This document shows, in pieces, positions 52,543-57,468 of a DNA stretch of 64,000 bases. Source of the DNA: Campylobacteraceae bacterium (GTDB lineage Bacteria > Campylobacterota > Campylobacteria > Campylobacterales > Arcobacteraceae); assembly GCA_013215945.1 (NCBI GenBank), contig JABSOM010000001.1:62001-126000 (forward strand), given 5' to 3'. The notes beneath the pieces were generated by a model. It was not told where the DNA came from. It did not search any database and worked only from the letters and a program-made list of their open reading frames with translations. The first letter of the stretch is position 1; every line of letters begins with the position of its first letter. The translations under genes were made by a program, and so were the position numbers.

Positions 52543-55500
52543 TTACTGAGTATTTGTACTATTAGTTAGTTTTAATAGAATAATAAATTCTACTCCCTTA
52601 TTTTCTTGACTTAAACACTTAATACTACCATTTAATCTGGATACAATAATATTGTATATGATATTTAGTCCTAAACCTGAGCCACCATTATTTCTATTTG
52701 TTGTAAAAAATGGATCAAATATTTTACTAAGGTTTTCTTTTTTTATCCCTTTTCCATTGTCTTTATAAATAATTTTTAACTCATTTTGATCTTTTAAAAC
52801 AGTAATACTTATCTCACCTTCTTCTTTTTCTTTAAAACCATGTATAAGTGAATTCATTATTAAATTTGTAATAATTTGAGAATAAGCACCGGCATAAGAA
52901 TTTATTTTTATATCATTGGGGCAAGATATATTTATCTTAATATTTGATTTTTTAGTCACTGAATGAATACTTTGTAATATTTCATCTAAGTATTTTTTTA
53001 AATTAAACTCTCTTTTTTCTTCACTACTTTGATCCACAGCAACTTGTTTAAAAGAGCGTACCAGTGCCGCTGCTTTTTCAAGATTTCTATGTATTAAAAA
53101 ACTCAATTCTTTGCTATTGTCTAAATATTCTTCGAACTCACTTTGCGTCATTTTTTGATTACTATATTCTTTACTAATTTCAGAGGTAAGCTCTTCCAAA
53201 TGAGATATTCCTGTTAGCCCTATGCCTATTGGGGTATTAATTTCATGTGCCACACCCGCTACCAAACTTCCTAAAGATGCCATTTTTTCTGCATCAATTA
53301 ATTGTTCTTGTGTCTGTTTTAAATTTTCAATAGTACTTTGTAATTCTTCATTTGAATCTTCAAGTTCATCTTTTATAAGAGATAAGTCTTCTACACTCGC
53401 ATTTAGTTTAAGATTTATTTTTTCTATGTGATTTTTATTTTTAGATATTTTATTTAAAAAATATAAAATGATTGATAAAATGAGCACAAAAACAAAAATC
53501 ATTTCATAGATGATTTCATAATCTACGGCTGTATTTATTTTTGTTTTAATCCATTTATGTCTTATCTCATTTTTTTTCTCAAAACTAATAGAGTCAAGGA
53601 CTTTATTTATAATAGATAAAAGCTCCGTTTTGTTTTTTTGTACTAAAAAACTGTGCTGATATTTATTCTCTAATACACCTGTTATTTTTAAAGAGGGAAA
53701 AAAATTTTTAATATAATACGATGCAATTGCAGAGTGTTCTATCGTTGCATACGTTTTATTTTTAGCAACTAAGTCAAAAGCTTCTTTAAGTGTATTGGTC
53801 TCAATTATTTTTATAAAAGGATAGTTTTCTTTAATAAAATGATAGGCAGTCAAATCTTTAGGCAACACCAAGGTTTTATTTTTTAAATCGTTTATATTAT
53901 TAGTAAAATTCTCATCCTCTTTTGTCACAAGAATATAGTTAAAACGTTCATAAATATTTGACAAAACTGCATCATTTATTTTTAATGCTAAATTTGAATA
54001 AGAAGGTAAAATATCTAATTCTTTGTTTTCAAAACCTTTTATGACATCGAGTCGTGTATCTTTTTTAACAAACTCAAATTTTAAGGATGTTGTATCTTCT
54101 ATTATTTTGATATATTCCATTACTAAACCAATTATTTTATCTCCATTGATAAAAACCAAAGGTTCTAAATTAGTTTCAGAAAATCTAATAATGGGATTAT
54201 TTTTGATAAAAAGTTTCTCTTTTTTTGAAAATTCAATTTTGTTTGATAAATAAGAAAACTCCCTATATATATTTTTTACATATTCATACGAGAGAAGATT
54301 TTTAAACTTGTTTATATCAGGAATAAGGGTTGAAGAGGATAATAGTTTTTCATTAAAAGTGAGCTTTAAATAACCTACTTTAGTAGGATGATTATAAAGG
54401 AAATAAAAACTATCAAAAATCATTGCCTCTTTCAGTACTTCTTTTGAAGAAGAATATAAAAGTTCATTATTATCATAAACTTCAATGTTTTTGATATAAA
54501 ACATTGAAGTAAAAATATTTATAATATTTTTAATTTCAAGCGTATTATGATCAAAGATGTATTTTGACAAGAGTTTGGATAAAAGCGTAAGTACTTCAAC
54601 TTTAGCTTTTTTATCATATAAGATATAAGAATTGATAATTTTTTGATAAGTACCTGATTCTTTGATTTTTTCTAAATTCTTATTAAATATATTTCGTAGA
54701 TTTTCATTTTTAAAAGCAAGTTTCAAGGTATTATTCGAGCCCTTAAGATAATTAAATTTATACTCAGATAATTGGGTATTACTCATATATTTCAAGTGCC
54801 ATTTAAAAATATTATTGTCCATTAATATAATATCAACTTTTTTATCTAAAAAAAGTTTTATTGCTTTGTGATCCTCTTCTTCTGTATAGTTATCTTCTCT
54901 TGTTTCAGGCTTGAACATAGAATAAAATTCTTTACTAGAAAACATGTGGGCATTGGGAAATGCTACTATTTTTTTGTCTTTTAAATCTTTTACACTGTTA
55001 ATCGTAATATTATCTTTTACCCTTGTAATAAAAACATTACTTAAAGTAATAAAATCATTTGAATAATAAAATTCATCGTTTCTTTCTTTAATAGAAGAAA
55101 GCATATCAAAGGAATCATTATTTTTAAAAGTATTGTAAATATTCTCATAATTTGAACTAGAATAATTGATTTTTGTTTTATAGTCTTTAAAAACTTCTTT
55201 AATTAAATCGAATTCAATTCCTTTTAAATACGAATTAGAAAAGATAAAAGGTTCTCTTTTTTTATCAAATATAATATTTAGCTCTTTTTTTATTTTTTCT
55301 TTTTTTAACCATTTTGAGATAATTCTATTTTTCTCTTCTGTTGAAATCAGATATAAAGACTTCTGTAAAATACTTTGCAAGATAAAATCATCTTTTTTAG
55401 AAAACATATGTATTTGATTTATTTTAATCTCGCTTTGCCGAATTGCTCTTAAGCCTTTAATTAATAATTCATTCAATTTATGCTCAACTACAATTTGAGA

Positions 55501-57468: not shown

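Follow-up and report, generated by a model that had tools for sequence, protein, structure and literature searches.

Among the described systems closest to the kinase considered here are BvgS and EvgS, whose targets are DNA-binding regulators. Kinases with periplasmic Venus flytrap (VFT) domains form a large family, exceeding 11,000 members (PMC5829827); despite this, what those with several VFTs bind, and how they integrate it, is largely obscure. More than 8,000 two-VFT kinases have been analysed, chosen by matches to both PF00497 and PF00512 at E < 0.001, and the PAS domain is absent in about 30% of BvgS homologues (PMC5829827). The number of VFTs in BvgS homologues runs from one to five, and tandems of three, four and five are mentioned; in BvgS itself, VFT2 adopts a closed form with no ligand bound while the kinase is on (PMC4352136). 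The BvgS mechanism, and control through the linker in PAS-less members, are treated in these two papers (PMC4352136, PMC5829827). A literature search found no paper on Arcobacter VFT kinases.

The window, the whole stretch of 64,000 nucleotides that was analysed, comes from a marine Arcobacter-type bacterium and encodes one such kinase. The open reading frame begins at a GTG with AAGGA ahead of it, a good ribosome-binding site, and runs in the order signal peptide, VFT1-4, a non-VFT insert, VFT5, transmembrane (TM) helix, linker and kinase. The features are as follows (window coordinates, strand, residues in parentheses):

52543..57468, minus strand: sensor histidine kinase ORF with five VFTs, 1641 aa, GTG start (Pfam and profile; dN/dS 0.10)
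57406..57468, minus strand: signal peptide (1-21), by hydropathy the sole hydrophobic stretch ahead of the TM helix
56752..57399, minus strand: VFT1 (24-239), by PF00497 and model; has both the amino-acid-binding Arg and the Asp of lobe 2
56020..56661, minus strand: VFT2 (270-483), by custom profile and model; Arg invariant among relatives
55306..55953, minus strand: VFT3 (506-721), by custom profile; Arg invariant, sequence closest to BvgS VFT2
54649..55281, minus strand: VFT4 (730-940), by profile and model; lobe-1 Arg mostly lost, one clade 14/14
54205..54615, minus strand: insert module (952-1088, about 137 aa), by alignment, model and profile comparisons; CHASE8-like
53548..54189, minus strand: VFT5 (1094-1307), membrane-proximal, Z 27.3; Arg lost in 17/17 relatives
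53449..53514, minus strand: single TM helix (1319-1340), by hydropathy, between VFT5 and kinase
53299..53448, minus strand: helical linker (1341-1390), by sequence, without PAS in the Pfam scan
52573..53298, minus strand: DHp and ATPase (1391-1632), PF02518 at E 8.9e-21, H-box GVAHEINTP
53245..53247, minus strand: His1408, predicted phospho-acceptor, with GVAHE at residue 1405
58114..59877, plus strand: divergent neighbour, a PAS-GGDEF-EAL c-di-GMP enzyme, also found beside the orthologue in the NORP36 genome

The only Rfam match within the window is a tmRNA gene at 47875-48268 (plus strand, RF00023).

An earlier note, made from the sequence alone, had described the protein as a BvgS-like kinase with five VFTs, and this description holds. 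PF00497 recognises five distinct stretches of the protein (E 6.5e-73 over the whole), and a scan of the organism's own genome likewise places it five times. An SBP_bac_3 profile built in this analysis, from which the domain boundaries are taken, gives E values of 1e-43 to 6e-73. Structure prediction, which the earlier note had named as the check on its count, also gives five: AlphaFold models (mean pLDDT 83.3 for residues 22-736, covering VFT1-3, and 87.7 for 727-1315, covering VFT4-insert-VFT5), taken with structure alignment, contain five predicted VFT folds and not fewer. VIA-align Z scores are 22 for VFT1 (against LAO/GlnPQ-type SBPs), 21.4 for VFT2, 23.7 for VFT3, and 27.3 for VFT5 against both BvgS VFT2 and the RmcA PBP domain; the BvgS crystal structure 4q0c, which has two VFTs, aligns with VFT4 and VFT5 jointly over 437 residues. 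The pTM of the VFT1-VFT3 model is 0.39, too low to read the packing of the domains from it. Five VFTs are not in themselves new: the number had been contrasted with a usual two, and it is the top of the known range of one to five (PMC4352136).

The kinase domain is HPK4-like, with intact H-box and N, G1, F and G2 motifs. With the HisKA profile (PF00512) the protein reaches 12.7 bits (E 0.14), short of the 26.9-bit cut-off and outside the published limit of E < 0.001; surveys that select by this profile would miss the branch to which the window kinase belongs. Despite the HisKA miss, the domain is predicted to work as it does in the rest of the family, because H-box and ATPase are present. The strict form of the BvgS linker motif LLAAA was not found; the equivalent of BvgS Trp535, which belongs to the helix following the last VFT, read from the 4q0c alignment by extrapolation beyond its aligned range, falls on Asp1316/Tyr1317. 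Set against the NORP36 orthologue, to which it is 92% identical, the protein has a dN/dS of 0.10 as a whole and of 0.06-0.19 by domain, with each VFT at 0.07-0.19 and the insert at 0.09; every domain, the insert included, is thus maintained by purifying selection.

The insert had been listed as an uncharacterised module at residues 955-1075. It is real and lies ahead of the last VFT, with somewhat wider limits (about 952-1088); it proves classifiable. In the model it consists of two helices and four strands (alpha-alpha-beta4), then connecting helices. The window copy matches no Pfam family, with only DUF7035 appearing, below its cut-off; a sequence profile search of the PDB gave nothing below E 0.25, and a PDB fold search with the VFT4-insert-VFT5 model returned, among the matches listed, VFT structures. 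Profile comparison is more informative. An alignment of 15 inserts, set against a CHASE8 profile of Arcobacteraceae sequences, gave P 2.2e-4 and a score of 31.7 over a local match of 50 columns (controls: at most 20.1 in 100 column shuffles, 12.5 when reversed), and a repeat comparison gave P 1.3e-4 and 32.9 (at most 20.5 in 40 shuffles). The insert of the G477/G478 kinases is clearly homologous to the window type (P 5.8e-13) and matches CHASE8 at P 1.3e-5; that of G321, alone in Pfam, finds CHASE8 at E 0.11. A comparison with a membrane-flanked sensor of the L093 type is weak, its score of 19.7 barely exceeding the best of 30 shuffles (18.4). The resemblance to CHASE8 (PF17152) thus lies in profile similarity above shuffles and in the order helix-helix-strands; the differences are that the insert falls below the Pfam cut-off of 27 bits (13.2 for the best relative, no match for the window copy), is embedded between two VFTs, and has no counterpart of the membrane helices that flank CHASE8, the sole TM of the protein lying at 1319-1340. 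It may be called CHASE8-like, rather than a CHASE8 member, because the curated cut-off is missed and bracketing membrane helices are absent.

The insert occurs in 7/104 Arcobacteraceae genomes, in 4/397 genomes sampled across the phylum (two already counted, one at chance level), and in 5/44 genomes of a second family (one a weak match with stops). The match in G281 (E 6.5e-4) is not within a VFT protein and is taken as chance; the gap regions in the NMT1-SBP kinases of contigs 1 and 2 are not inserts and belong to a longer NMT1-type region. That the module might serve for dimerisation or as a linker, sensing nothing, is a serious possibility, though somewhat short of an even chance: it would suit the absence of the usual flanking membrane helices and the local, 50-column extent of the CHASE8 match, whereas conservation of position and length over two families, the dN/dS of 0.09 and a topology like that of small sensor domains of the periplasm argue for a sensory role.

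In family-3 binding proteins, the ligand carboxylate is held by an Arg in lobe 1 and the amino group by an Asp in lobe 2. The Arg column holds R in 6/6 transport SBPs of the organism's own genome; among relatives of the kinase it does so in 5/7 for VFT1, 13/13 for VFT2 and 14/14 for VFT3, falling to 3/14 for VFT4 and 0/17 for VFT5. Asp is found in the second column in 4/6 SBPs, in 6/7 for VFT1, 4/13 for VFT2 (with Glu in four more), 0/14 for VFT3, 14/14 for VFT4 and 0/17 for VFT5. Only VFT1-3 thus carry the carboxylate-binding Arg of the amino-acid-binding pocket, and its loss, in most copies of VFT4 and all of VFT5, suggests that at most three of the five look like amino-acid pockets. The earlier proposal that several ligands are integrated is supported in part. 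VFT1 is the best candidate for an amino-acid sensor because of both columns, and its ligand would most likely be an alpha-amino acid. Carboxylates are the probable ligands of VFT2 and VFT3; for VFT4 and VFT5 the choice would be between a different ligand and a relay role. A conserved Arg is not proof of amino-acid binding, and the ligands named here are those that we infer from it.

How this tandem came about can be followed in relatives, sought family-wide among 104 Arcobacteraceae genomes. The order of four VFTs, insert, VFT and kinase (V-V-V-V-I-V-K) recurs in three NORP36 genes, one of them cut by a contig end, and in G091, G095 and G036, from two other genera; the organism's own contigs 15, 11 and 6 carry paralogues with one VFT fewer (V-V-V-I-V-K). 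In a tree of 122 VFTs, VFT4 forms one clade (14/14, support 0.98), as does VFT5 (17/17, support 1.00), and VFT1-3 fall into nearly clean position-wise clades. The contig-15 paralogue opens with a VFT nearest to VFT1 and appears to lack VFT2, and those of contigs 11 and 6 appear to lack VFT1. VFT4-insert-VFT5 is a fixed cassette in Campylobacterales, with VFT1 and VFT2 coming and going, and the position-wise clades point to an old assembly in which N-terminal units have been gained and lost. As the earlier note had said, the five domains differ strongly; their identities of 17-27%, together with these clades, rule out recent internal duplication.

Several irregular loci were met in the course of this comparison. 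In the organism's own contig 11, a 637-aa protein (L011:6969-8882) consists of part of VFT1 and the end of VFT5, followed by TM, PAS and an intact kinase; it looks as if a five-VFT kinase had undergone an in-frame deletion, and it occupies the site of such a kinase in NORP36. L136:4806-8273 and L137:4262-7759 encode kinases of a different class with the order VFT - insert - VFT - VFT, which would place the VFT4-insert pair N-terminally also. The NORP36 counterpart of the contig-6 kinase (L092:5796-10110, contig 29) is in two frames, of 1008 and 426 aa, and is either a broken gene or an assembly error. A second such kinase begins about 10 bp after the orthologue in NORP36 (L009:10918-15786, five-VFT) and in G088 (L070:1475-4082), both cut by contig ends; the window genome has none, and a convergent chemotaxis-receptor gene (50240-52360) is found at that place.

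A reading in which the extra VFTs are mostly structural, one or two binding ligand and the tandem acting as a spacer left by modular gain and loss, is rather unlikely. It would accommodate the lost Arg of VFT4 and VFT5, the paralogues without VFT1 or VFT2, and L011:6969-8882, which keeps its kinase with part of VFT1 only; it sits poorly with dN/dS of 0.07-0.19 in every VFT, with an Arg invariant across paralogues in VFT2 and VFT3, and with the age of the position-specific clades. The position-specific conservation instead separates likely ligand binders from likely relays.

The remaining question is where the signal goes. The observation that the protein has neither receiver nor HPt domain (Pfam scan) and no adjacent regulator stands; the nearest PF00072 matches of the contig are some 26 kb away upstream and some 25 kb away downstream, and the genome has 84 in all. 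The partner must indeed be sought elsewhere, as had been supposed, and the relatives allow a prediction. The insert-bearing kinases whose downstream side could be read fall into three groups. In nine, the next gene lies on the same strand and encodes a receiver-(PAS)-HD-GYP protein (the organism's own contigs 15 and 11; NORP36 contigs 28 and 8; G088, G089, G091, G095 and G036), at gaps of 13-24 bp in seven and of 348 and 419 bp in two; in three it encodes a further kinase of this kind, and in three it encodes neither (the window gene, the one on the organism's contig 6, and the split gene of NORP36 contig 29). The consensus shared by these downstream regulators holds the catalytic HD and GYP motifs. 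Further, G321 and G466, from two genera of another family, carry a V-V-V-I-V sensor joined in one protein to PAS-HD-GYP, the kinase being absent altogether (L091:5124-9491 and L135:3341-7699). Agreement between neighbours and fusions suggests that the window sensor likely controls c-di-GMP breakdown. The organism's own genome encodes four receiver-HD-GYP proteins, on contigs 9, 11, 14 and 15, each adjoining a kinase of the window-kinase class; the one on contig 11 is the best guess for the partner, because the DHp of its kinase is closest to that of the window kinase (74% identity, against 61% for contig 15, 61% for contig 9 and 58% for contig 14).

Counting against this choice are the window copy and two relatives without an adjacent regulator, and a different partner is possible given 84 receivers. 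BvgS and EvgS themselves suggest a DNA-binding response regulator, which the kinase would phosphorylate or for which it would mainly be a phosphatase; this is improbable, in spite of the missing neighbour and the many receivers, when the same sensor cassette is linked to HD-GYP by nine adjacent genes and two fusions and the kinase domain is of the class found in those HD-GYP-linked relatives. Gene neighbours may also hint at the signal: a PhnCDE-like ABC transporter follows the kinase/HD-GYP pair in L011, L054, L056 and L095, and in L095 the transporter's binding protein is a match to TIGR04553 (putative selenate) and a BisC/TorA-type S/N-oxide reductase comes next.

The mechanism that we favour, with somewhat better than even confidence, is that of a PAS-less BvgS-type kinase in which VFT1-3 sense, VFT4-insert-VFT5 relays, and a receiver-HD-GYP output tunes c-di-GMP. 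VFT1-3 would sample small molecules of the periplasm; the membrane-proximal cassette would transmit their state, the CHASE8-like insert possibly adding an input of its own. VFT5 would act as a relay, in line with the closed, ligand-free VFT2 of kinase-on BvgS. The signal would pass through the single TM helix and the helical linker to the kinase at His1408, in whichever direction it regulates, and the phosphoryl group would most likely go to a receiver-HD-GYP c-di-GMP phosphodiesterase encoded elsewhere, the contig-11 protein being the best candidate. A more general proposal, which is distinctly tentative, is that an undescribed VFT4 - CHASE8-like - VFT5 cassette merges up to three exchangeable amino-acid-type VFTs with its own input and governs the breakdown of c-di-GMP, by way of a kinase and receiver-HD-GYP pair or directly by HD-GYP fusion. 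The fusions offer a simple readout, hydrolysis of c-di-GMP by one polypeptide, where the kinase version is hard to assay.

Set beside known systems, the window protein has in common with BvgS and EvgS a series of SBP_bac_3 domains in tandem, a single TM helix, a helical linker, DHp and ATPase; BvgS VFT2 is the nearest counterpart of VFT3 and VFT5, and PAS is absent, as in about 30% of homologues (PMC5829827). It differs from them in having five VFTs rather than two, with VFT4 and VFT5 separated by a module that is not a VFT, in lacking the receiver and HPt phosphorelay of BvgS itself (not universal in the family), in a HisKA match that misses the Pfam cut-off, and in the predicted HD-GYP output. 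The likeness to RmcA lies in the match of VFT5 to the solved RmcA PBP domain (Z 27.3) and in the direct fusion of two relatives of the sensor to a c-di-GMP enzyme; RmcA, however, has one solved PBP domain and an EAL-domain annotation, whereas the fused enzyme in the relatives is HD-GYP and the window protein acts via a kinase. What is new is the CHASE8-like module fixed between VFT4 and VFT5, together with the link to HD-GYP.
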